A stretch of DNA of 13,327 nt, taken from the NCBI RefSeq assembly GCF_001652265.1, contig NZ_LWBS01000005.1:1-13327 (forward strand). Reading direction: 5' to 3'. The DNA comes from Rhizobium leguminosarum. Lineage in GTDB: Bacteria; Pseudomonadota; Alphaproteobacteria; Rhizobiales; Rhizobiaceae. Under the pieces are notes generated by a model, which searched no databases, was not told the DNA's origin, and worked only from the letters and a program-made list of their open reading frames with translations. Shown here piece by piece: positions 1,035-12,703 of this stretch (position 1 is its first letter; each line of letters opens with the position of its first letter). Both the position numbers and the translations under genes were made by a program.

Positions 1035-1289
1035 ATGAGGGACATCGCAGAAGGTGTAGAAAAGTACATTGCCGATCTCGGGCTTAAGATCCCCGAGGCG
1101 GAACAGAAAAAATTCGCGCTCGAACTGACGTCGGAAATCGCCAGCGAAGCTCAATCCGAAGCCAATTCGGAAGTTGCCGGCGAAGCGAATAGCGAGTCCG
1201 CGAGCGAAGCCCATCAGGAAGCTGCGGCGGAAGCCGCGATGGAAGCGGCTGGGGAAGCCGCCGTGGTGGGGGTCCGCCGGCCCTACTAA
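1035..1289 (+). CDS. Small E-x-x-x repeat peptide, candidate ribosomal-peptide precursor
   Basis: The product has 84 residues. Residues 1-32 form a charged N-terminal segment (MRDIAEGVEKYIADLGLKIP at 1-20). Residues 33-76 are eleven consecutive tetrapeptides with Glu at every fourth position (34 to 74) and mostly Ala, Ser or Asn between. The tail is VVGVRRPY. There is no Cys, Trp, signal peptide or membrane segment; the repeat should be strongly helical and acidic, the tail is basic. I chose ATG 1035 because GGGAGGA ends 4 bases upstream. It is the first gene of an operon whose next two genes are an adenylate-forming enzyme and a protease, which is the layout of a precursor followed by modifying and cutting enzymes. 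I do not recognise the family. It could instead be a helical carrier or regulatory protein; the precursor role is inference. Confidence 0.7.
   Translation: MRDIAEGVEKYIADLGLKIPEAEQKKFALELTSEIASEAQSEANSEVAGEANSESASEAHQEAAAEAAMEAAGEAAVVGVRRPY
1131..1262 (+). repeat. Eleven 12-bp coding repeats (tetrapeptide array)
   Basis: The stretch divides exactly into eleven 12-base units, each with GAA or GAG as its second codon. Codon choice varies between units (for example GAAGCT, GAAGCC, GAAGCG), so the amino-acid pattern is better kept than the DNA. This argues for selection on the protein rather than recent slippage. Confidence 0.85.
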
Positions 1290-1298
1290 CAGGCCGGC
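1276..1298 (+). terminator. GC-only hairpin over the peptide stop codon (partial terminator or mRNA-stability element)
   Basis: GCCGGCC at 1276-1282 pairs perfectly with GGCCGGC at 1292-1298, leaving a 9-nt loop that contains the TAA stop. No T-run follows, so it is not a standard intrinsic terminator. A stem here would separate expression of the peptide from the enzymes downstream, as is common behind ribosomal-peptide precursor genes. Confidence 0.5.
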
Positions 1299-1381
1299 CC
1301 GACGTCAAATTTAACTTCAGGTCATACAAGCAAAGTTTGGCAAGGTGCGAAGCCGGGTGCATCGCGCTTGATGGGTGGGGT

Positions 1382-2872
1382 ATGCTCAATTCTCTCGAAA
1401 TCGAACCTCGTGATCACACCGACCTTCGCACCTTCGCCGAAGAACTGACCGGACGATTGAACGCGGTTGCGGAAATCGATCCTGCGGCCCTAATGGATCT
1501 GTTTCGCGCATCCGAAGGGTTTCACGACGCTAACCGTCTGATTCTTTTCGCCCTTCAAAAATTCCTGCTGAAATGGACCGTGGGCCACGCCTACAAGCAC
1601 ACGAAATTTTACGGCAAAAATCCAGCCTATGCATCGCTTCCATCGAATGAAGTCGACGCTGCGCCTGACCTGTCGGCATGGCCAATCATATCCCGAACAG
1701 TGATTTCCGAAAATTTCGAAGAGTTCATAGCCGACGACGTTCAATTGCGCTCGACCTGCCATACATCGGGCACAACGGGCCAACCAATGGACGTTTATAA
1801 GTCATTCGAGGAAGTGCGTTTCATCAATGACTATTTCTCCCACATGTTCCGCTCGTTTTTGAAGTCGGGACGACCCAAACCGCTCAGCCTGTCTTTCCCT
1901 AATTTTTATCATGGAGTCGCAGTGCCGATGCCGAGCATCGGCATGAGTTTCGTCAGCGGTGTAACGGACGACACTTTGATCCAGGATGCGCGTCGTGTTC
2001 TGGATACGACCTATCATTTTAAGGGCTACGACAGCCGCATTCGTATATTAGGTGGTCTTGGGCACCATATCCTATTTTTCACCAGCTACCTACTGGAGCA
2101 GGGCGTGGACCTTAGCACGTATCGTATGGAATGCATCAACCTGACCGGTGGGTTCCTGTCCGTGCAGATGTTCGAGTTCCTACGCGACGCGTGGAAATGC
2201 CCCATCAACATCCGCTTTTCGATGACCGAAACCATCGGTGGTGCCACCTGCATCGAACCCACAAGCCGATTTGTTCTGGATCCCCACCTGATTGGCGAGG
2301 TTGTCGATGTCGACACCGGGGGCTCACTCCAAGAGGGGGTCGGCGCATTGGTGTTGACCAATCTTTACCCGTTCGTGCAGATGCAACCGTTGATCCGCTA
2401 TCAAAACGGCGATCTGGTGCGACGTATTCCCTCGGCGAATGGCCGGGTCGTTTTTGACTTCCTGGGGCGCGTCAAGAATGCCTTGACCCGCATGAAGGAT
2501 GGCAAGCGGGAATGGCTGCTGTTTTCGGCACCGCTCAATAATACGCTCGCCGCCATCCCCGATATTCGTGTTTATGACTGGTTCGCCAATGTTCGGACCG
2601 CCAAGGATCGCACTGTAGGATCACTTCCGATCATGTCCGTCCGAGCCGAAGAGAGCGGCGGCGTAGTGACCATTAAGCTTTCGCTGGAACTTCGCTACGC
2701 GCCGCATCTCCATCGGAAGCGCTGCGATCAACTCCGCAGGGAAATTATCGCCGCCATGCGCGCCGTTCCTGACACGGTGTTGAGTACGGCTATGGATGCA
2801 AACGAAGTCGTTTTCGACATCCTCTTTTGCGGACCCGAACAACTCAACGAGCCGATCGTGATAAAGATATGA
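1382..2872 (+). CDS. Adenylate-forming enzyme, PaaK/CapK (phenylacetate-CoA ligase-like) family
   Basis: The product has 496 residues and belongs to the acyl-adenylate superfamily. It shows the ATP-phosphate loop TSGTTGQP (128-135), the acceptor motif MTET with Glu283, RYQNGDLV with Asp344 as ribose-binding residue, and a hinge-like FLGRVKNALTRMKDGK region. Such enzymes activate a carboxylate with ATP and pass it to CoA or an amine; the CapK branch includes F390 synthetase-like proteins. The standard PaaK hinge (GRSDD-like) is not clear, and the C-terminal domain is divergent. ATG 1382 is preferred to an upstream in-frame TTG at 1337, which lacks a ribosome site. The stop overlaps the protease start (ATGA). 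The substrate is unknown; the neighbours suggest a peptide carboxylate, Glu side chains, or 7-carboxy-7-deazaguanine. The family is fairly sure, the substrate is inference. Confidence 0.8.
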   Translation: MLNSLEIEPRDHTDLRTFAEELTGRLNAVAEIDPAALMDLFRASEGFHDANRLILFALQKFLLKWTVGHAYKHTKFYGKNPAYASLPSNEVDAAPDLSAWPIISRTVISENFEEFIADDVQLRSTCHTSGTTGQPMDVYKSFEEVRFINDYFSHMFRSFLKSGRPKPLSLSFPNFYHGVAVPMPSIGMSFVSGVTDDTLIQDARRVLDTTYHFKGYDSRIRILGGLGHHILFFTSYLLEQGVDLSTYRMECINLTGGFLSVQMFEFLRDAWKCPINIRFSMTETIGGATCIEPTSRFVLDPHLIGEVVDVDTGGSLQEGVGALVLTNLYPFVQMQPLIRYQNGDLVRRIPSANGRVVFDFLGRVKNALTRMKDGKREWLLFSAPLNNTLAAIPDIRVYDWFANVRTAKDRTVGSLPIMSVRAEESGGVVTIKLSLELRYAPHLHRKRCDQLRREIIAAMRAVPDTVLSTAMDANEVVFDILFCGPEQLNEPIVIKI

Positions 2873-4326
2873 GCGACGAACGCACCACCGGAAATGGACA
2901 GTCGCGGTCAAACCATGCGGCTTTTCGCGTGACGGCGGAGGTTATTATCTCCCCTCCCGAGCGTTCACTCTTGGCGACGGGCGATGTTCGCGAATTGCGG
3001 GAGTTTCCGAAACCAGCGGCTGCCGAACGAATTGGTCGGGTGAGCGGACTTCTGGAAACGAATGGTTTCAACATACATCACGTCGGTCCCTTTTCGATCA
3101 CCATCGAAGGGACGCCGCAGCAATTTATACAAGCGTTCGGGTGTCGATTCGCGGATGCGCCGCATAGCCGCGCACGTCTTGCATTTGCCAATGCGGATCC
3201 CTCCTTGCACGTGCCCATCGACAAACGGTGGCAAGAGATCGAAGGCGTCGTCCTGATCCCCATCGAGAGCTACAGCGCCTCCTCGGATAGTGGCCCCTCG
3301 GACAGCGACGAAAATCATCCCGATCACCTGCCAAAACCCCAGGTCGACTACTATCACTTGAACGCCCCGAGAGACCTCGTTACCAATCTATGTGCCAACG
3401 AAGCACACGCCAAAAACATCTGTGGGCAAGATATCGACGTAGTCGTCGTCGACAGCGGCTGGTGGAACCATCCCTGGTTTCAAGACCGTGGCTTGCATGT
3501 GGATGTTGTTCTCGCGCCCGGCGCCTCAGCACCGGAATTGGACGAAGTCGGCCACGGGACAATGGTGTGCGCAAGCCTGATGTCCTTGGCGCCGAACGCC
3601 AAGGTCACGATGATAAAGCAATCCGGCGAGGACGCGTTCACCGCATTCAAAATGGCGATTGATCGAGCCCCTGCCATTATCCAAAACACCTGGGGTATGC
3701 CCGCCTCTCATGGTCCCTTGGACGCAGCGCAGAAACTTGTGGCCCTTACCGTGCTTTACGCCATCAATAACGGGATAATTGTCGTGTTTGCCGGGGGAAA
3801 CGAAAAGAAGCTATTTCCTCAGCAGATGCATGAAACAATCGCCGTGGGCGGTTCATTCGTTCATCGCGACGGGTCACTGGAGGCCGCCAGCTACGCCAGC
3901 GGCTACGAGAGCCGCCTCTTCCCCGGCCGCATCGTGCCTGATTTTTGCGGGCTCGTCGGTATGAAACCGGAAGGCGTCTATCTCATGATGCCGACCATGC
4001 CTGGATCGGAAATCGACGTCGCCTTCGCCGAGAAACCCTATGCTTACGGTGACGGTACGGACCGACCCGATGACGGCTGGGTCGTCATCAGCGGGACTTC
4101 CTCCGGATCTGCGCAGGTTTCCGGGGTCATCTCAATGTTGAAACAAGTTCAACCGAGCCTGGATCAGAAAGCGGCGAAGGAACTTATCGCCCGATGCACG
4201 AGACCCGTGCTGTATGGCGTTTCGGCGGAAGGCAACCCCGCCGGGCTGCCGCTACCGAACCTGGCGACGGGATACGGCTTGGTCGATGCGGAAAAGGCGC
4301 TGCGGGAACTTGGTGCAGCGCTTTGA
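2869..4326 (+). CDS. Subtilisin-like (S8) serine protease, cytoplasmic, with pro-domain
   Basis: The product has 485 residues. The catalytic residues are visible: Asp195 in VVVVDSGWW, His229 in GHGTMV, oxyanion Asn311 in AGGNEK and Ser411 in SGTSSGSAQ. The usual Pro after the Ser motif (GTSMAxP) is replaced by Gln. Residues about 50-110 resemble a protease pro-domain of the kumamolisin type ([20 protein letters not shown]), followed by a Ser/Asp-rich linker (about 136-153). There is no signal peptide or membrane anchor, so it should act in the cytoplasm. It starts inside the stop of the adenylating enzyme (ATGA at 2869), implying coupled translation, and folE follows after 29 bases. A role in cutting the small peptide (leader removal or release of repeat units) is inferred from position. 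Confidence 0.88.
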
Positions 4327-4355
4327 TTTTTCTCCGTACAAATGAAGGTGATATC

Positions 4356-4982
4356 ATGGACACCATTGCCCCTAAGATAGACATATTTCAACGCGACGTA
4401 ACCCGAGAACAGGTGGAGGACGCCATCCGGACCCTGTTGGTATGGGTTGGCGAAGACCCGGCCCGCGAAGGATTATCGGATACGCCGAAACGCGTCGCTA
4501 CCGCATTTAAGGAGTATTGTGCCGGTTATGAGGAAGACCCGCGCGATGTTCTGGATCGCACCTTCGAGGAAATCACCGGGTATCGCGATATGGTCGTCTT
4601 GCGGCACGTTCCGTTCGAGTCCATGTGCGAACATCATCTGGCTCCCATCATCGGCAATGCGCATGTCGCCTATCTGCCGGTTGGACGGGTGGTCGGCATC
4701 AGCAAACTTGCTCGTGTGGTTGACGGCTATTCGCGCCGCCTGCAAATCCAGGAACGCCTCACCGTCGAGATAGCGGAAGCGGTTGACAACGTCTTGAAAC
4801 CGCGAGGTGCGGCCTGTGTCATCGACGCCGAGCATTTTTGCATGAAATGCCGCGGCGTCCGGAAGAAGGGCAGCTGGATGACGACAAGCCATCTCACCGG
4901 CGCGTTCCTGACGGACGATCGCACGCGGCAAGAATTTTATCAGCGCATTCGCTGCGACGGATTCGGCTCGAGGGGACTATAA
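4356..4982 (+). CDS. folE: GTP cyclohydrolase I (FolE type), first step to preQ0
   Basis: The enzyme converts GTP to 7,8-dihydroneopterin triphosphate, the entry to folate and 7-deazapurines. The 208 residues match the family length. Zinc ligands are visible as Cys91 and His94 in CEHHLAP and Cys162 in [10 protein letters not shown]; the TSHLTGAF motif follows. I chose ATG 4356 because AAGGTGAT lies just upstream; a longer open frame back to 4194 overlaps the protease and is unlikely. The stop TAA shares its last base with the ATG of the purA-like gene. Because QueD, QueE and QueC are all present in this window, its likely job is the deazapurine product rather than folate (the ToyD role). Confidence 0.95.
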
Positions 4983-5989
4983 TGACCTGTTCCATCGTGG
5001 TCGGCGGACAGTGGGGTGACGAGGCGAAAGGCAAGATTTGCAGCTATCTGGCGGTTGCCGATAAAATCTCGGTCGCCTGCCGGGCCGGTTTGGGCCCGGG
5101 CGCCGGCCACACCGTGGTTTACGAGGGGCGCGACTACAAACTGCGCCAATCGCCCAGCGCCTTTATCAACCCGAATACGCGCCTTTTTCTGGGCGCCGGG
5201 GTCCTGATCAATAGCGACATTCTGATCGAAGAGATCACGCGGCTGGGTATCGAAAAGCGTGTCGGTATCGACCCGCGCGCGACCTTGGTCGAGCCACATC
5301 ACCGCGCAGCTGAAGTCAGAGACGCCAATTTGACGAAGACGATCGGCTCCACCGGCAGCGGCCATGGCCCCAGCCTTGCCGATCGCGCCATGCGTCGGGC
5401 GCGACGTTCCGCCGATGAGCCTCAACTGCAAGATTTCCTGGTTGATGTTTCGAAGGAGACGAATGCCTGTCTTGACCGTGGCGAACACGTGTTGATCGAA
5501 GGGACCAACGGATATCTTTTGTCTGTCTTATACGGCACCTATCCCTATGCCGTCGGAAAGGACTCCTGCGCCAGCACCGCTGCCGCCGATATCGGGATTG
5601 GGCCGACCCGCGTTGACCATGTCATCGTGACCTTCAAGGCCTTTCCAACCCGCGTGGGTGCCGGCCCATTCCCAACCGAAATGTCGGCGGATGAGGCAAA
5701 AAGGCGGGGGTTTATCCAGTGCGGGACTGTCACCGGAAGACCCCGCCGTGTCGGCGAGTTCGATTTCGAGCTGGCGGCCGATGCCGCCCGCGTCAATGGT
5801 GCAACGCAATTGGCCGTGACACATCTGGATTGGCTGGATCCTGGCTGCAACCACCTTCCGATGGATCGCTGGAATTCGGATCTGCGCCGCTTCGTCGATC
5901 GCCTGGAGCAAGCGTGCAACGTCCCCGCGACGCTGCTTGGGACAGGGCCGGATACCCATCACATCGTCGACCGCCGGCATACCCTATGA
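4982..5989 (+). CDS. purA: PurA-like adenylosuccinate synthetase, short form (ToyG role)
   Basis: Adenylosuccinate synthetases use GTP to replace a 6-oxo group by aspartate. The motifs are VGGQWGDEAKGK with catalytic Asp13, GAGHT with His43, LIEGTNGYLL, GTYPYAVGKDSC, FPTRVGAGPFPTE and GTVTGRPRRVGEFD. Two signatures deviate: GDEAKGK for the usual GDEGKGK and GAGHT for NAGHT. At 335 residues it is about 90 shorter than typical bacterial PurA, near the compact archaeal form, which argues for a specialised enzyme. ATG 4982 overlaps the folE stop and follows GAGGGG. The stop overlaps the purB-like start (ATGA). Its substrate is predicted to be the IMP-like 7-cyano-7-deazapurine ribonucleotide; the family is clear, the substrate is inferred. 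Confidence 0.92.
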   Translation: MTCSIVVGGQWGDEAKGKICSYLAVADKISVACRAGLGPGAGHTVVYEGRDYKLRQSPSAFINPNTRLFLGAGVLINSDILIEEITRLGIEKRVGIDPRATLVEPHHRAAEVRDANLTKTIGSTGSGHGPSLADRAMRRARRSADEPQLQDFLVDVSKETNACLDRGEHVLIEGTNGYLLSVLYGTYPYAVGKDSCASTAAADIGIGPTRVDHVIVTFKAFPTRVGAGPFPTEMSADEAKRRGFIQCGTVTGRPRRVGEFDFELAADAARVNGATQLAVTHLDWLDPGCNHLPMDRWNSDLRRFVDRLEQACNVPATLLGTGPDTHHIVDRRHTL

Positions 5990-7284
5990 TCCCGCGCTAC
6001 AGCCGTATGGAAATGACGCAGCTTTGGTCGCGGGAGCATAGCTATTCCTTGTGGTTAAAAGTCGAATTGCTGGCCTTGGAGGGGATGGAGGCGATCGGCA
6101 AGATCCCATCAGGCACCACCGAAATCGTTCGCTCCCGCGCGACGGTCGACGTGGAGCGGATTGCGGTTCTTGAGGCGCAAGTCCATCATGAGGTTATTGC
6201 ATTCCTGACATCCGTCTCCGAACAGGTCGGCATAGAGGGGCGCTTTATTCACTACGGAATGACGTCTTCGGACATGCTCGATACGGCGCTTGCCGTGCAG
6301 ACGTGCCAAGCGATAGATCTCCTTCTTGCCGAGATCGACGATCTCACGAACACGCTCCGCCAACTGGCGGAAGAACATCGTGGGACCCTATGCCTTGCCC
6401 GCACCCATGGAAGGGGCGCCGAGCCGACGACTTTTGGGCTAAAACTTGCCGGTTTCTTTGCCGAATTCCGACGCAGTGCGCGTCGCCTTGCCGAAGCCAG
6501 ACGGGAAATGGCGGTCTGCAAACTGGCGGGCGCCGTCGGCACCTATGCCACCATCGACCCTCGCGTCGAAAACTTCGTCGCCGCCGCGTTGAGCCTTACG
6601 CCGGAAACCGTGGCAACCCAGGCAGTCGCGCGCGACAGGCATGCCTCGGTAATGACCGGCCTGGCGATCCTGGCGGGCGCGATAGAACGTCTTGCGACCG
6701 AATTGCGCCATCTGCAGCGGCAGGAAGTCGAAGAGGTTGCGGAAGGTTTTTCAGCGACGCAAAAGGGCTCCTCGGCCATGCCCCATAAACGCAACCCGAT
6801 TTTCTCTGAAAATCTGACCGGCCTCGCGAGACTTATCCGCGCGTCGGCGATGCCCGTCTTGGAGAATATCGCGCTGTGGCACGAACGGGATATGTCCCAC
6901 TCGTCAGTTGAGCGCGTGGCCCTGCCCGATGCATTCAGCCTGTGCGATTTCGCACTTGCGCGCCTGAGCGGGATTATGCGCGGGCTAGAGGTTCGACCCG
7001 ATAGAATGCGCGCAAACCTGGACGCCATGCGGGGTGGTTTCGCCTCGCAGCGAGTTTTGCTGTCCCTGATCGATGCAGGCCTCAGCCGCGAACGCGCCTA
7101 TGCAATGGTTCAACAGGCCGCGGCCCGCGCGGTAGATCAGGGCATGACTTTCAGGGACGCGGCTCTCCTGGAGCCAGAATTGACGACCCACATATCCGTG
7201 GAGGAGATTGACGTGGCCACCGATCCCGCCTGCTATTTGGCGAATGTCGATTTCATTTTTGCGCGCGCTTTTGCCGAGCTGTGA
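5986..7284 (+). CDS. purB: PurB-like adenylosuccinate lyase (ToyF role)
   Basis: The enzyme removes fumarate from a succinylated 6-amino purine. It belongs to the aspartase/fumarase superfamily: GMTSSDMLDTA (91-101), ARTHGRGAEPTTFG with His141, and the signature loop GSSAMPHKRNP (261-271) with the catalytic Ser263. The 432 residues match the family. It begins inside the stop codon of the purA-like gene, so the two are probably made in step. It ends the plus-strand operon and meets queE tail to tail. A housekeeping purine role is possible, but the operon places it with the deazapurine pathway, where it would finish the 6-amino group of a toyocamycin-type base. Confidence 0.93.
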   Translation: MIPRYSRMEMTQLWSREHSYSLWLKVELLALEGMEAIGKIPSGTTEIVRSRATVDVERIAVLEAQVHHEVIAFLTSVSEQVGIEGRFIHYGMTSSDMLDTALAVQTCQAIDLLLAEIDDLTNTLRQLAEEHRGTLCLARTHGRGAEPTTFGLKLAGFFAEFRRSARRLAEARREMAVCKLAGAVGTYATIDPRVENFVAAALSLTPETVATQAVARDRHASVMTGLAILAGAIERLATELRHLQRQEVEEVAEGFSATQKGSSAMPHKRNPIFSENLTGLARLIRASAMPVLENIALWHERDMSHSSVERVALPDAFSLCDFALARLSGIMRGLEVRPDRMRANLDAMRGGFASQRVLLSLIDAGLSRERAYAMVQQAAARAVDQGMTFRDAALLEPELTTHISVEEIDVATDPACYLANVDFIFARAFAEL

Positions 7285-7315: not shown

Positions 7316-7342
7316 AGGAACCGAGCGAAAGCCATGGTTCCT
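7316..7342. terminator. Weak hairpin between the convergent operons
   Basis: AGGAACC (7316-7322) is complementary to GGTTCCT (7336-7342), with a 13-nt loop, in the 56-bp gap between the two converging operons. It overlaps the queE stop and has no T-run on either side, so a terminator role is only suggested by location. Confidence 0.25.
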
Positions 7343-8036
7343 ACCGTAAAGCTAACATCTTATGTGTCTGAAGGCACAGCGTATAGCCGTGGCGCATCGC
7401 GATATCAGCACAAAGGGCGCGATTGCGTTCATTCAAATTCTCGTCGCCATCGTCGCGCGGCATGACATAGATCGGCGCCACCGCTTTTTTCTGGCGAAAT
7501 AGCCGCATGACATAGTTTTCCTTTTGCGTGGATCGTGCCGGCAATCCATCCTCCGCATCGACCTCGTCGACAGACAGAACGTATTTATAAGCGGAGATGC
7601 GGGGCACGATATCCGGATGCAACCCACGGGTTTTCGGGCTGCACACAATGGTCAAGCGTTCGCTTTCCGGCAGTTCGATCCATAAGGTTCCATTGGTCTC
7701 GATTTGAACACGCAACCCTCGCCCTAACAAGGTTTCGACCAGCGGAGCGATATTTTGCCGGAAAGGTTCACCGCCCGTGATGACGATCAAATCGCAAAAC
7801 GACGGACGAATGTTCTCGATTGTCTCAAGCAACTCGTCCAGGCTCGGTCGCCATGTGGAGGATTCGAAATCGGTATCGCACCAGAAACACTTGAGATTGC
7901 AGCCGCAGGTGCGCACGAAAACGCTGGGCTGTCCGCTGAACGGCCCCTCGCCTTGCAGCGTATAAAATACCTCCTGGATCCAAAGTTCGCGACCGTCGGT
8001 CAATTCCTGACGTCTGAGTTTATTCTTGCCCTTCAT
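7341..8036 (-). CDS. queE: 7-carboxy-7-deazaguanine synthase QueE (radical SAM)
   Basis: QueE converts 6-carboxytetrahydropterin to 7-carboxy-7-deazaguanine, using S-adenosylmethionine and an iron-sulfur cluster. The 231 residues show QGEGPFSGQPSVF, the cluster motif Cys46-x3-Cys50-x2-Cys53 in CNLKCFWCD, the GGEP motif (88-91), QIETNGT and a CSPK block, all typical of QueE. An extra Cys44 precedes the cluster. It is the last gene of the minus-strand operon; its ATG at 8036 overlaps the stop of the guaB-like gene (ATGA), so translation is probably coupled. It corresponds to ToyC in the toyocamycin cluster. Confidence 0.95.
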   Translation of the reverse strand: MKGKNKLRRQELTDGRELWIQEVFYTLQGEGPFSGQPSVFVRTCGCNLKCFWCDTDFESSTWRPSLDELLETIENIRPSFCDLIVITGGEPFRQNIAPLVETLLGRGLRVQIETNGTLWIELPESERLTIVCSPKTRGLHPDIVPRISAYKYVLSVDEVDAEDGLPARSTQKENYVMRLFRQKKAVAPIYVMPRDDGDENLNERNRALCADIAMRHGYTLCLQTHKMLALR

Positions 8037-9238
8037 GGCGAAAACTCCACCGTTTGCGTCGATTTTATTGCCCGGGCAGCCGCAGCCTCCCGAAGAAATT
8101 GCTCGCGATAATTGGGCTGAATTTGCTGAACCAGGCCGATTGCATGCGGTTTACTTTCAGCAATGCCGGCTCCAGTGATCTGGACGAAACGCGCCTTTTC
8201 ATGCATTTCGGCGATATCCATGCTGCCGCAGTATGAAATCCCGGATCGCAAACCATTGGAAAGGGACCGCACCACCTGCATAAGCGGGCCGCGGTATTCA
8301 AAGGTCGCTTCGACACCTTCTGGTTCGTAATCGGCAATTTCATCGTCGAAAACCAAATCACCTTCTGTCCAGCGTATGGTCAGGTTCACGCCGAGGGAAA
8401 CAAAGCCGGTCGAAATCTTGTAGCGTCGGCCGTCGCGCTCAACCGTGAAGGCCGCGCTTTCCTCTGCGCCGGCCAGGATGCTTCCCAGCATTACCGTTGA
8501 CGCGCCGGCCGCCAAGGCCTTCGTTATTTCCCCTGATCCCCGTATACCCCCGTCGGCGATCACAGGAACATCGTGTGCGCGCGCCACCGCCACGCAATCG
8601 CGCACCGCTGTCAGCTGAGGCACACCCGCCCCTGCCACCAATCGCGTCGTGCATATGCCGCCAGGCCCGATACCAACCTTGATGGCATCGGCACCCGCTT
8701 CAATCAAATCATGGGTTCCCTCCGCCGTCGCGACATTCCCGGCGATCACTTCGACGGCGGGATACCGGTCCTTGAGGCGCGCAACCGTTTCTATCGCGTA
8801 GTCTGCGTGTCCATGAGCGATATCCAAGACGAGGATTTCGGCCCCTGCCTCGACCAGAGCGGCAGCACGCTCCAACGCTTCCGCCTTTGCGCCGATAGCC
8901 GCAGCCGCCAACAAGCGACCATCGACCGACTGCGTTGCCGTGTGTGCCGTCGCCGGGTCGATCATGGCGCTTTTGACATTCAGTATCGCGGTCACCTGGT
9001 CTTTGATCGGCATCATTCTATGGAGAACGCCAAGCCCTCCAAGCCGCCCCATGGCAATGGCCATCCGGGCATCCGTGCACCAGGGCACATTGGCGGATAA
9101 AATCGGCACCGCAAGTCTTCTTCGGTGCGTTACCCGACTGGAAATATCGATGTCCTTGCGGCTCCGGGCGCGCGTACGTTGCGGGACCAGCAAAACATCG
9201 TCGAAAGACAGTCCTAGGGGAATGATGTCTGACGTCAT
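8033..9238 (-). CDS. guaB: IMPDH/GMP reductase-like enzyme lacking CBS domains (ToyE role)
   Basis: The 401 residues form the TIM-barrel of the IMPDH/GMP reductase family: [10 protein letters not shown] at the start, [18 protein letters not shown], the active-site loop [11 protein letters not shown] with Cys196, [18 protein letters not shown] and [11 protein letters not shown] near the flap. The CBS pair that bacterial IMPDH carries in the barrel is missing, and I see no Arg-Tyr dyad in the flap region before EGVE. Both points favour a GMP reductase-like reaction, removing the 2-amino group from the preQ0 ribonucleotide to leave an IMP analogue, as proposed for ToyE. It overlaps the nitrile hydratase stop at its start (9235-9238). 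Automated annotation would probably say IMP dehydrogenase; the deaminating role is inference from family and context. Confidence 0.87.
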
Positions 9239-9906
9239 GATCTATTCCGCTCTTCGAGGTTGGGGTCATGGATGTGCTCGCAGTCGTGGGCAGGGGGACA
9301 TTCATGGAATGGATCCCCTGTCGGAGCGTCTCTCACCAGCATTCTGCCCTCCAGCCGATGATCGGTATGCCATTTGGCGTCGCCGCCGAACGGACGGGAA
9401 TGCCAGCTGGTTTCTGCCCCTGCGATACCGGTTCCGATCAAACTGTCCAAAGTGACCAAAAGGGCCATTTCCTCCAAGCCCAGCTTCTCGAAACCTTCGG
9501 GCAAAAGGGGCAGGACCAGGTAACGATGACGGAACGTCGAATCATAAACTCGGATTTCGGTCTCGTCGGGAATATTCAATCCGAACTGCTGGGACAAAAA
9601 TCCTCGGGGATCCGTTTCCATTCGTCGCCGATATTCGGCGCTGCGATACCAATAAGGTGCCGGACCCAACAAGCTCGTGGGATAACAGGAGCACAATGTG
9701 CATACGACGGCATGGTGTACTCGTGGTTCGTTCTTCAGAACCGTCAGGATCGTACCATCCTCCAGCGCAACCCCGTATTCCGTCAGGACATCTCCAGAGT
9801 TGGTCAAAAGTCGATGTTCGAACAATGGATCCCGCCAGGCGCGTGCCACCAACATCGCGCCGACGGGTAAAAGCACCTCCGAGGATGGCCCATCTGCGTC
9901 TCGCAT
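9235..9906 (-). CDS. Nitrile hydratase alpha subunit, cobalt-type motif, with a His/Cys-rich tail
   Basis: The motif VCTLCSCY (68-75) is the metal-binding claw of nitrile hydratase alpha subunits: Cys69, Cys72, Ser73 and Cys74, and Thr in the second place of CTLC marks the cobalt type. Before it lies VARAWRDPLFEHRLL and after it YWYRSAEYRRR and EIRVYDSTFRHRYLVLP, all family blocks. The 223 residues lack most of the usual N-terminal helix but carry an extra C-terminal tail with HECPPAHDCEHIHDP, likely metal-binding. No beta subunit lies in the window. ATG 9906 shares a base with the queC stop and is preferred to an upstream start inside queC. In context it would hydrate a toyocamycin-type nitrile to the carboxamide. 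For the Streptomyces toyocamycin enzyme, the alpha subunit ToyJ has been reported active alone. Confidence 0.88.
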   Translation of the reverse strand: MRDADGPSSEVLLPVGAMLVARAWRDPLFEHRLLTNSGDVLTEYGVALEDGTILTVLKNEPRVHHAVVCTLCSCYPTSLLGPAPYWYRSAEYRRRMETDPRGFLSQQFGLNIPDETEIRVYDSTFRHRYLVLPLLPEGFEKLGLEEMALLVTLDSLIGTGIAGAETSWHSRPFGGDAKWHTDHRLEGRMLVRDAPTGDPFHECPPAHDCEHIHDPNLEERNRS

Positions 9907-10610
9907 CAGGCGGCACCGCGTTGGGCGTAACGCGCCGGATCCTTCAAACCAGCCTCGCTGAACCCTTTCAGCCGGAGCAGGCAGGAATCGCATTCCCCAC
10001 AGGACAGCCCCTCTACCGTTGGGTCGTAGCAACTGTGGGTCAGTCCGTACTTAACCCCCAGTTCCGTGCCGCGCCGAATGATCTGTGCCTTCGTCATCTG
10101 AATGAGCGGTGTATGAATCTTCAAGGTCGTTTCGCCGGTTACGCCTGTTTTCGTCGCCAGATTGGCCATGCGGACGTAAGCGTCGATATATTCCGGCCGG
10201 CAATCCGGATAACCGGAATAGTCCAACGCGTTGACGCCGATGAAGATGTCGGGGGCCTTCAGCACCTCTGCCCAAGCCAATGCGAACGACAGGAAGATCG
10301 TGTTGCGTGCGGGCACATAGGTGACCGGAATTCCCTCGCTCATTTCGGAGGTCGCCCGACCCTTGGGAACGTCAATATCCTGCGTCAGTGCCGACCCGCC
10401 AAATTGGCGCAAATCGATCGATGCGATCATATGATCCCTGACGCCTGCTTCGGCGGCAACTTGCTTGGCCGCCTCAAGCTCGGCGACATGGCGCTGACCA
10501 TACCGGAAGCTCAATGCATACAGGTCGAAGCCCTGCTGCTTTGCAATGGCCAAAGTCGTCGCGGAATCCAATCCTCCACTCAACAAAACGACGGCTTTCG
10601 ATTTTGACAT
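9906..10610 (-). CDS. queC: 7-cyano-7-deazaguanine (preQ0) synthase QueC
   Basis: QueC turns the carboxylate of 7-carboxy-7-deazaguanine into a nitrile with ATP and ammonia. The 234 residues contain the PP-loop SGGLDS (11-16), [36 protein letters not shown] and the zinc site Cys194, Cys204, Cys207 and Cys210 in HSCYDP and [11 protein letters not shown] 10610 was chosen because AGGAGGG (10624-10618) sits 7 bases upstream; the frame is open further, to 10688, without such a site. A 74-bp gap separates it from the HAD gene, the largest gap in this operon, so it may have its own translation start or an internal promoter, though none is obvious. It corresponds to ToyM. Confidence 0.96.
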
Positions 10611-10684
10611 GGCACTACCCTCCTCATGTTGCCTCTGAAAATCCCGTTGGCAAACTTGCCGTCCACCAAACCCCGATCGCCAGA

Positions 10685-11350
10685 TCAAGTTAGATGTTCA
10701 CTCGCCCTCAATTCCGCGACGCTCGCCACGACGTGATCTGGCGCCAGCGCCTCCAAGTGATTGCCCAAGAACCTGAAATTGCCTGTCCGAACAGCAATTG
10801 TTCGCATGGCGAGCGCCTTACCTGCCTGTATATCGATCGGCGCGTCGCCCACGATGGCAACTTCCCGCGGATCCATTTCCAGCTCTTTGAGGATTCGCTG
10901 CACAAGCGCGAGTTTCACCTCCAGGCTGCTGGGTGTGCCCGCGATCGCTTCCGCCCCAAGGTCGTCACGTGTCAGAACCGATTCAAAGCAATCGGCAACC
11001 TGCTCCCGCACCAGCAGACATTTCGTCTGGTCGGTGGCGACCCAGGCGCTGGCGATGGCAAGTCGCATTCCGCCATTGCTCAAGGTGCGGATAACGTCGG
11101 ATGTGCCGGGAAAAAACTGTGCCTGCTCCATATATGACCGAGGGATACGATCCAGATGATCCATCACCAGAATGTCGCCGATCGTCCGCCCTTTCTCAAT
11201 GCTGTGCCAATAGTCCAGACTCAACACATGATCGCGGTCGCTGGGTACGGATAAACATTGCCGGACATGCAGATCGTCAACGAATGCCAGGAACATCCCC
11301 GAGAAATCCAGCAAAGTCCCGTCCCGATCGAAAATCACAGCCCTAATCAT
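10685..11350 (-). CDS. HAD-family phosphatase (ToyI role)
   Basis: The product has 221 residues and all four HAD motifs: nucleophile Asp8 and Asp10 in [10 protein letters not shown], Ser101 in AIASAWV, Lys146 in LEVKLALV, and Asp169 and Asp173 in [11 protein letters not shown]. An alpha-helical cap of about 60-70 residues lies between motifs I and II, as in phosphoglycolate phosphatase-like members. Its ATG overlaps the phosphoribosyltransferase stop (ATGA). In the toyocamycin cluster the corresponding ToyI is thought to remove the 5'-phosphate of the finished nucleotide. The substrate is not readable from sequence, and a house-cleaning nucleotidase is an alternative. Confidence 0.87.
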
Positions 11351-11919
11351 CTGCGCACCGGAGCCTCGTCAGCGCTTCGCTGGCCCAAGCTCGACTGCGA
11401 GGCGACAACAAGCGGCTCGACGGGTCCATCCATCACTGCTTTCTGGCTTTCCCACGGGAAAACAACCCAATCGTCGGATTCTATCGCCCAATAATCGGGA
11501 CGATTTTGACAGTTGACGTTGCAAACAACAGTTGCGGATCGGATGGATTTCGCGCCCATCTCGCGGAGTTGCCCAAGGATGGCGGTCAAGGTACCGCCAT
11601 CGCCGGCGATGTCGTCGCAAATCAGCAAATGGCGAGCGGACCAGTCGTCTTTCGCCGGCCCCACCCAAGCTATCTTGGGCGCTCCACGCTCGGCATAGCG
11701 TTCGTCGCCGGCGTTTCGGGTGACGGAAATCACCCGGATGTCGTGCAGTTCCAGCCTATGCGCCAACGCGGTTGCCAGCGGCAGCCCGCCTCGCGCCAAC
11801 GCGACCACCGCGTCCGGCTTCACCGCGTCCTGGCATATCCGTTCGTAGAGAATATCGACGGAGTTGCCGAATTCCTCCCAGCTCAATTGCAGAAGCCGCT
11901 TTCCCAGCCAAAGATCCAT
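11347..11919 (-). CDS. Type I phosphoribosyltransferase (ToyH role)
   Basis: The 190 residues carry the PRPP-binding loop LLICDDIAGDGGTL (98-111) with the acidic pair Asp102-Asp103 and the earlier ALARGGLPLATALAHRL block, both typical of purine phosphoribosyltransferases. The base-specificity region near the C-terminus does not match a standard hypoxanthine or xanthine enzyme clearly enough to name one. It is the first gene of the minus-strand operon, with AGGAGGGG (11931-11924) four bases before ATG 11919. In context it would join preQ0 to ribose 5-phosphate from PRPP, the ToyH step, which diverts preQ0 from tRNA queuosine to a free nucleotide. That substrate is inferred. Confidence 0.87.
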   Translation of the reverse strand: MDLWLGKRLLQLSWEEFGNSVDILYERICQDAVKPDAVVALARGGLPLATALAHRLELHDIRVISVTRNAGDERYAERGAPKIAWVGPAKDDWSARHLLICDDIAGDGGTLTAILGQLREMGAKSIRSATVVCNVNCQNRPDYWAIESDDWVVFPWESQKAVMDGPVEPLVVASQSSLGQRSADEAPVRR

Positions 11920-12085: not shown

Positions 12086-12703
12086 ATGCAGGAATATCAT
12101 TTGATCACGCGTGAAATCGGTATCGATGCGGCCCACCGTATCCCGCACCACGAGTCGAAATGCCATAACTTGCACGGTCATCGATATAAGATTGCCGCGA
12201 CTTGCGTGGGCCCCCTGTGTGGCGACGGGGAGCAGACTGGCATGGTCCTCGATTTCGGTTTCTTGAAGGACGAAATGATGGCCGAGATCGATGCCTGCTG
12301 CGATCATGGCATGATGATTTGGGTAGACGATCCCTGGATCGGCTCCTTTCTCCCCGAAAACGCATCTGAAGCCAAGGCCGCCGCGGTTCTGCGGAAATAC
12401 CGTGACGAGGTGACCCATGCCGGTCAAAAGCTGATCGAAGGTCCATTCGGCAAGACACTTTTGCTGGCGAGCGTGCCAACTGCGGAGAACCTCGCGAAGC
12501 ATTGGTTCGATAGGCTGGCACCCCGCGTTAGGTTCCGAAGCCATAACCGCGCACATCTCCTGCGAGTAGAGGTTTGGGAAACGCCAAACTGTATGGCGAC
12601 ATACAACACCCAGGATCCAGACTGGTTCGCGTTCGATGCGGTGCCGAAACTGCCCTCCGGCAGATTGAGTCATTTGGCAGGTTACGACTCCGGATTGAGC
12701 TGA
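12086..12703 (+). CDS. queD: 6-carboxytetrahydropterin synthase QueD (PTPS family)
   Basis: QueD converts dihydroneopterin triphosphate to 6-carboxy-5,6,7,8-tetrahydropterin. Zinc ligands are His17 in AAHRI and His30 and His32 in CHNLHGH, with catalytic Cys26; VLDFGFLK, CDHG (His74) and VEVWET (Glu165) complete the family pattern. At 205 residues it is much longer than E. coli QueD (about 120), because of an insertion at roughly 76-130 and a C-terminal extension after about 170. It stands alone as the single plus-strand gene beyond the divergent promoter; GGGGA lies shortly before ATG 12086. It fills the ToyB step and completes the route to preQ0. Nothing obvious replaces its operon partners downstream. 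Confidence 0.93.
   Translation: MQEYHLITREIGIDAAHRIPHHESKCHNLHGHRYKIAATCVGPLCGDGEQTGMVLDFGFLKDEMMAEIDACCDHGMMIWVDDPWIGSFLPENASEAKAAAVLRKYRDEVTHAGQKLIEGPFGKTLLLASVPTAENLAKHWFDRLAPRVRFRSHNRAHLLRVEVWETPNCMATYNTQDPDWFAFDAVPKLPSGRLSHLAGYDSGLS

Follow-up and report, generated by a model that had tools for sequence, protein, structure and literature searches.

We analysed a stretch of 13,327 nucleotides from Rhizobium leguminosarum (contig NZ_LWBS01000005.1; this whole stretch is the window), in which a small peptide with regularly spaced glutamates (Glu), a PaaK-like ligase and a subtilisin-type (S8) protease are encoded in one operon with folE, a purA-like gene and purB. This arrangement, noticed in an initial annotation made from the sequence alone, is borne out by the open reading frames (ORFs), by their spacing (+92, -4, +29, -1 and -4 bp, in that order) and by family scores; the family scans (Pfam/NCBIfam and PADLOC) took in 10 of the 13 window proteins. 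It was also correct that gaps and overlaps do not exceed 30 bp from the ligase onward, the peptide gene itself ending 92 bp before the ligase. A scan of positions 840-1400 for promoters and terminators found none. The same peptide-ligase pair lies among nucleoside or nucleotide genes at nine distinct loci.

A scan of one genome per species with a ligase alignment yielded 76 loci; in seven of them (L002-L008) the match covers most of the ligase at 46-73%. Plasmids were searched as well and contributed an Aminobacter and a Mesorhizobium plasmid (L078/L079), which carry the same cluster and were counted as one locus, so that together with the window type there are nine distinct loci, the only ones of this ligase family with readable surroundings. 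Two plasmid ligase matches of ~27% identity (Roseibium aggregatum and Streptomyces) were excluded as too distant; the R. aggregatum match lies beside heptose genes, and no Glu-repeat peptide was found there. At all nine loci a peptide of one family is encoded near the ligase, preceding it on the same strand in eight and lying nearby on the opposite strand in L003, i.e., a small encoded precursor is linked to a candidate modifying enzyme, as is general for ribosomally synthesized and post-translationally modified peptides (RiPPs). Nucleoside or nucleotide genes surround the ligase at 9/9 loci, and their chemistry is of the 7-deazapurine type in three, of the RFAP-synthase C-nucleoside type in three, and of the TruD plus class II reductase, phosphoribosyltransferase (PRT)/radical SAM and PurC/GATase/GMC types in one each. 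The loci are spread over three phyla (Pseudomonadota, Cyanobacteriota and Acidobacteriota). The initial annotation had tied the peptide, ligase and protease to deazapurine genes and had held that their regular occurrence elsewhere would speak against it. The tie stands in three distinct clusters (R. leguminosarum, Peteryoungia and Pseudovibrio), but the co-occurrence search did find the trio without deazapurine genes, and the six loci of other nucleoside or nucleotide chemistry rule out a link exclusive to deazapurines. Since the partners at these loci, too, are genes for nucleosides or nucleotides, the idea is favoured in a broader form.

Peteryoungia (L002) carries a complete deazapurine set in the gene order of the window. 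In Pseudovibrio (L005) the IMPDH-like protein, PRT, PurA, QueD, QueE, PurB and FolE are encoded in another order, and neither QueC nor nitrile hydratase was found on its 16-kb contig. Genes for LuxC, LuxE, a class III aminotransferase and an HAD protein lie in the same cluster (L005:160-7648), together with a P450 at this locus; LuxC, LuxE and the aminotransferase suggest reduction and amination of a carboxyl group. The RFAP-synthase type clusters occur in Aminobacter, Mesorhizobium, Prosthecomicrobium and Aureimonas. L078/L079, L006 and L007 have in common an RFAP-synthase family protein, PurC, a phosphoribosylanthranilate-isomerase-like protein, a LysA-like decarboxylase, an amidohydrolase, a Rieske protein and BtpA, with a GMC oxidoreductase and an FGGY kinase in L078 and L006, and PurH in L078 and as a partial match in L007. 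In Roseibium (L008, 9421-16031) the row runs peptide, ligase, TruD-like protein, methyltransferase, class II ribonucleotide reductase and HAD protein, and suggests a deoxy C-nucleoside. Petrachloros (L004) has adenine-phosphoribosyltransferase-like, radical SAM/SPASM, HD and PRPP-synthetase-like genes, and the short Acidobacteriaceae contig (L003) a weak SAICAR-synthetase match, GATase, GMC, NUDIX and HAD genes. According to the available text of PMC8724604, RFAP-synthase-like enzymes act in the making of formycin and pyrazofurin, and TruD-like ones in that of malayamycin and pseudouridimycin.

The other 69 loci of the ligase scan (L009-L077), which hold more distant PaaK-like genes and include many short-segment matches, served as controls. 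None of them matched any of 18 probe proteins (16 pathway, 2 S8; picked after the module loci had been seen) at E 1e-8, and none had a reading frame with the Glu-repeat pattern. When database matches were paired by equal length of the longest contig, the ligase was paired with S8 eight times (three already among the nine loci) and with the peptide six times (two already among them), the pairing covering the best 120 of 134 ligase matches, 84 S8 matches and the best 26 of 45 peptide matches. The cassette might nevertheless have been carried along with plasmid islands, without any role in nucleoside synthesis: plasmids carry the window block as well as the Aminobacter and Mesorhizobium loci, insertion sequences lie near the R. 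leguminosarum copies, and the ligase family is rare. In genome samples we found it in 2/397 (the source genome and G334), 2/385 (the source genome and one distant match), 1/339 (the centre genome itself) and 2/347 (the centre genome and one distant match), and an alignment scan of viral contigs found no relatives. Such hitch-hiking is, however, already disfavoured and most improbable given the peptide and nucleoside genes at every module locus against no peptide and no probe match at the controls, the rearranged association in Pseudovibrio, the 4-bp overlap between the ligase and TruD-like genes in L008 and the spread over three phyla. The balance is even, in our estimate, on whether peptide and ligase form a portable module, often joined by the S8 protease, that would handle nucleosides by covalent attachment to a ribosomal peptide.

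The window peptide had no match in Pfam or NCBIfam at E 0.01. A profile search returned 28 matches at E<0.01, among which at least two (P0205 and P0209) are peptides of already counted loci and at least one (P0231) is unrelated; the family has about 30 members. They share an N-terminal part, a run of 4-15 Glu at four-residue spacing and a short tail, the N-terminus and repeats being common to the family and the tails varying by cluster type. In 34 peptides, Glu-Glu distances of 4, 8 and 12 occur 281, 257 and 228 times, no other distance up to 12 being seen more than 15 times. Under a run definition that allows one break, the register position of 32 peptides is filled by Glu 295 times and by other residues 10 times, never by Asp, whereas their N-termini contain 84 Asp and 92 Glu. 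Judged by these counts, the register is a Glu-specific constraint that acts on each repeat. Lys and Arg (K/R) make up 0/1114 residues of the strict repeats and 51/336 residues of the tails (34 peptides), the definition with one break admitting two K and two R at another repeat position. The repeat count, 4 to 15 among the peptides, differs by one unit within one species, and Petrachloros has two peptide genes in tandem.

At least 80% of the window recurs at 97.5-100% identity on eight R. leguminosarum plasmids. Among five peptide copies compared (window, L080, L081, L090 and L091) the differences are synonymous apart from one in-frame 4-residue indel, the window peptide being without one repeat unit that the other four have. 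The repeated plasmid copies and the near-wholly synonymous changes in the peptide argue that this set of ORFs did not arise by chance. Insertion-sequence-related DNA lies at both window ends (1-830 and the right end), and these end sequences recur on many rhizobial plasmids, where they are often named IS6 or IS110 transposase.

The tails differ by cluster type (RRPY, GMRGF, TFRFGR, ASAKA, GFGAPRFGTFR, AFQGFGRFR and ASA), and the family ends in Y, F, R, A, K, T, S or P, so that the C-terminal Tyr, initially suggested as one of two possible attachment sites beside the Glu side chains, does not hold as a general one. In nine same-type pairs, the tail is more alike than the N-terminus and repeats in seven, equally alike in one and less alike in one (window/P0206). 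The majority behaves as expected of a core peptide, and a microcin C-like peptide-nucleotide antibiotic made by unrelated enzymes, the alternative closest to the initial annotation, could be envisaged, in which the carboxylate of the tail would be joined to the nucleoside or nucleotide, the Glu-rich leader would be removed by S8 and the tail would carry the nucleoside into competitors. The tails are indeed short, often aromatic and different between cluster types, 31 of the 34 contain K or R, and microcin C is a precedent for the joining of a ribosomal peptide to a nucleotide (available text of PMC12250964). On the other hand, some tails are nearly absent (ASA at the end of the Roseibium peptide), clusters of the one RFAP-synthase type have unrelated tails (TFRFGR and ASAKA), the protease was not found at three loci, and Glu without Asp over up to 15 repeats would be left unexplained. 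We consider this scheme distinctly unlikely.

The ligase belongs to a distinct family. It scores 19.7 bits against PF00501 (cut-off 29.9) and far under the cut-offs of the DVU_1553, PaaK and F390-synthetase models, and an identity as phenylacetate-CoA ligase PaaK was rejected by curated score (TIGR02155, 45 versus 646 bits; NF045666, 83 versus 300). The closest solved structures by sequence are phenylacetate-CoA ligases, a weak match. In an alignment of 30 ligases, H127, G130, T132, T282, E283, R339, Y340, G343 and D344 are invariant, and T128, S129, G133 and K495, the last adjoining the C-terminus, are kept in at least 90%. We take these residues to be adenylation-type motifs, and because they are conserved across these ligases the enzyme very likely adenylates a substrate. 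In a ligase tree built by a quick method (119 rows), the Pseudovibrio ligase stands apart from the window/Peteryoungia pair, and well-supported branches force two changes of a deazapurine label, whose clustering on the tree is not significant (120/500 shuffles as low). Its position in the tree and its different gene order indicate that the link between ligase and deazapurine genes was made or kept more than once and does not go back to a single inherited event. Small, unrelated-looking ORFs also adjoin several more distant PaaK-like ligases (L085:9688-9915, L016:9766-9936, L012:9724-9933, L014:3652-3972, L009:9592-9975 and L089:2841-3050), and the PaaK-like family may more widely tend to be paired with small proteins.

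The closeness of the ligase to CoA-ligase families would also fit a peptide that serves as a non-covalent helper or scaffold (e.g., a binding partner or immunity protein), with the ligase activating a small acid that decorates the nucleoside and the protease turning the peptide over. Extended Glu/Ala repeats could form a plain helix, and an optional protease suits such a role. Against this, no small-acid gene common to the clusters was seen in an annotation that was not exhaustive, the peptide stays the partner of the ligase across all nucleoside chemistries, and an exact 4-residue Glu period is unlike the usual coiled-coil repeats. This alternative appears unlikely to us.

In the S8 protease, the catalytic Asp195, His229, Asn311 and Ser411 are invariant in 20 sequences, and inspection by eye showed no signal peptide. 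It is present at six of the nine module loci. Relatives stand alone on Calothrix and Paenibacillus plasmids, where no ligase or nucleoside-synthesis genes are annotated and no Glu-repeat peptide was found in the stretches around S8, so the protease is part of a wider family. BMP-family ABC transporters include nucleoside importers, and on the Calothrix plasmid (L083:7881-15696) the S8 gene, whose product is 36% identical to that of the window, lies just before genes for a BMP-family protein and an ABC transporter.

We propose that a cluster with the module would first make a modified nucleoside or nucleotide, which in the window would be toyocamycin/sangivamycin-like. The PaaK-like ligase would then adenylate a carboxylate of the peptide and transfer it to a hydroxyl or amine of the nucleoside, yielding a masked conjugate; S8, where present, would cut the conjugate, and the nucleoside, alone or with a short peptide, would be released or exported. 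Activation of a peptide carboxylate is suggested because the ligase is always accompanied by the peptide, irrespective of the nucleoside. As to the site, type-specific tails would point to the C-terminus. The Glu side chains of the 4-residue repeats, which we think the likelier, would be favoured by a register restricted to Glu, by unit numbers that vary and by tails that are nearly absent in some members. The linkage at nine loci, the peptide family with its constraints and the conserved catalytic residues of ligase and protease are observed; we infer the peptide as ligase substrate, the bond and its site, the masking role and the substrate of the protease; by its mode of action, the module would be a carrier or masking system. 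Taken further, and only tentatively, it may be a new class of multivalent nucleoside carrier made on the ribosome, in which the ligase would load a toxic nucleoside on the side-chain carboxylate of every fourth-residue Glu, up to ~15 per peptide, giving a neutral form for storage or export from which S8, where present, would liberate the nucleoside. Such a carrier would work irrespective of the base and would have been adopted by pathways of the deazapurine, RFAP-synthase C-nucleoside and TruD types in three phyla.

Several points weigh against covalent attachment through the ligase. Only nine distinct loci lie behind the linkage, several of the probes used on the controls were taken from those loci, and the nucleoside assignment is weakest in L003, where it depends on the weak SAICAR-synthetase match, GATase and GMC and where 0/18 probes match. 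The Glu preference and alanine richness could reflect no more than helix formation, since Glu is preferred to Asp in a plain helix as well. With CoA ligases as the nearest named relatives of the ligase, a small acid could be its substrate, and the group of the nucleoside that would be acylated is not evident from gene content. Moreover, the protease is not the fixed part of the trio that it had been taken for: the genomes of L003, L004 and L008, three of the seven searched, gave no S8 match (L003 and L008 are metagenome-assembled and possibly incomplete), so that release of the nucleoside must differ there.

The remaining window genes (Table 1) belong to a toyocamycin/sangivamycin-type pathway. 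All four preQ0 genes (folE, queD, queE and queC) are present, as are genes for the GMP-reductase-like enzyme, PRT, PurA-like and PurB-like proteins and HAD phosphatase. The initial annotation had assigned every other step of this pathway to the window, and the gene set is there except for a complete nitrile hydratase (alpha and beta), needed for sangivamycin only: the cluster carries the alpha gene alone, and three beta-domain genes sit on other contigs of the source genome. The Peteryoungia cluster also holds a nitrile hydratase alpha gene. For the window, a nucleoside of the toyocamycin or sangivamycin kind is the most likely product, and it would be bound to the peptide at some stage. A DNA-modification or defence island, such as a Dpd-like system, was rejected: the PADLOC scan of 10 of the 13 window proteins gave only a QueC match, and the PurZ model scores 164 against a cut-off of 300.

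Table 1. Genes of the window, with coordinates in the 13,327-nucleotide stretch
Feature	Position	Strand	Basis
Glu-repeat peptide, 84 aa, 12 Glu in strict 4-residue register, tail end RRPY	1035..1289	+	ATG ORF, GGAGG just upstream
PaaK/F390-synthetase-like adenylate-forming ligase, distinct family	1382..2872	+	profile scores, alignment
S8 (subtilisin-type) protease, long N-terminal region	2869..4326	+	PF00082
GTP cyclohydrolase I FolE, ToyD-like step	4356..4982	+	above model cut-off
Short adenylosuccinate synthetase (PurA-like), ToyG-like step	4982..5989	+	NF003295 above cut-off
Adenylosuccinate lyase PurB, ToyI-like step	5986..7284	+	TIGR00928 above cut-off
QueE-like 7-carboxy-7-deazaguanine synthase	7341..8036	-	annotation of near-identical plasmids; 74% identity to L002 copy
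IMPDH/GMP-reductase-like enzyme, ToyE-like step	8033..9238	-	profile scan
Nitrile hydratase alpha subunit	9235..9906	-	profile scan (query frame 9235-10032)
QueC-like 7-cyano-7-deazaguanine synthase	9906..10613	-	annotation of near-identical plasmids; PADLOC QueC match
HAD phosphatase, ToyF-like step	10685..11350	-	profile scan
Phosphoribosyltransferase, ToyH-like step	11347..11919	-	profile scan
QueD-like 6-carboxytetrahydropterin synthase	12086..12703	+	annotation of near-identical plasmids; L002 comparison

Nucleoside genes also occur without the module. Two Bradyrhizobium plasmids (L095:7557-18032 and L096:5557-16032) carry a tubercidin-like cluster (FolE, QueD, IMPDH-like protein, PRT, UbiD, QueE, UbiX and nucleotidyltransferase), and neither a ligase match nor a Glu-repeat peptide was found on them. 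Streptomyces toy clusters likewise have deazapurine genes without the module (available texts of PMC12648386 and PMC7492574). The existence of such clusters makes the module an accessory add-on. An RFAP synthase of <60% identity occurs in 42 plasmid records; the one examined had no annotated module and no Glu-repeat peptide. Among 259 Hyphomicrobiales genomes, a sample without any known positive genome, the RFAP synthase had no match at 1e-60; the IMPDH-like protein was found in the source genome only among 259 genomes. On the R. leguminosarum plasmid pRL22b5 (L097:6167-10579), an RFAP-synthase family gene lies beside genes for a DNA adenine methylase, a hypothetical protein and a non-canonical purine NTP pyrophosphatase, a row that possibly provides a C-nucleotide destined for DNA.

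If the proposal is correct, some nucleoside antibiotics of Gram-negative and photosynthetic bacteria would be handled by a gene-encoded peptide, which would suggest how producers avoid self-poisoning, and the ligase would provide a means of coupling nucleosides to peptides. Genome mining for nucleoside clusters of obscure chemistry would then have a handle in an E-xxx-E-xxx-E peptide encoded next to a PaaK-like ligase. The RFAP-synthase clusters and the Roseibium TruD/class II reductase cluster resemble C-nucleoside pathways and are of interest in themselves. Among the literature matches listed, which mostly do not extend to subscription journals, we found no description of a peptide-ligase module. 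Neither core part, peptide or ligase, belongs to any described system that we found.

The pathway part of the window is closest to the toy clusters of Streptomyces, which in the available text of PMC12648386 comprise the preQ0 genes ToyB-D and M and the salvage genes ToyE-I, with a three-gene nitrile hydratase (ToyJKL) in S. rimosus where the window has one alpha gene. In contrast to the window, and as the initial annotation had stated, the toyA-M list of that text is without peptide, adenylating enzyme or protease genes, and the words 'peptide' and 'protease' are absent from the main texts of PMC12648386 and PMC7492574. For the protease, a parallel is QhpE, a cytoplasmic S8 protease that removes the leader from a modified peptide (available text of PMC7876137). 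Both are subtilisin-like proteases in an operon with a modified or candidate modified peptide, but the window protease scores 28 bits against the curated QhpE model (cut-off 165) and its substrate differs. The dipeptide of pseudouridimycin is not ribosomal. The formycin/pyrazofurin and pseudouridimycin/malayamycin clusters share with L006/L007/L078 and with L008 the RFAP-synthase-like and TruD-like C-nucleoside synthases, respectively, but no such module was seen in the available text of PMC8724604, and 'protease' is absent from its main text.

A close precedent for a cluster that encodes a ribosomal peptide and would produce a peptide-nucleotide or peptide-nucleoside is microcin C; in the available text of PMC12250964, its MccB is ThiF-like and MccA is a heptapeptide ending in Asn. 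No ThiF-like enzyme was found among the scanned window proteins, the ligase being PaaK-like, and the peptide is neither short nor Asn-ending, so a microcin C-type RiPP was rejected and the enzymes are unrelated, as initially supposed. Unlike microcin C, as far as that text describes it, the window has biosynthetic genes of its own for the nucleoside, next to those for a long Glu-repeat peptide and a PaaK-like enzyme. In the LysW/LysX amino-group carrier system, the small acidic metal-binding carrier LysW offers one Glu carboxylate as a handle for amino acids and works with an ATP-grasp ligase and a peptidase. The scanned window proteins gave no LysW-like or ATP-grasp LysX-like match, and an assignment to that system was rejected. 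The two are alike in their logic of acidic carrier, ATP-dependent ligase and peptidase, with a Glu carboxylate as the handle, but the module would use other protein families, up to 15 Glu instead of one, and nucleosides in place of amino acids.

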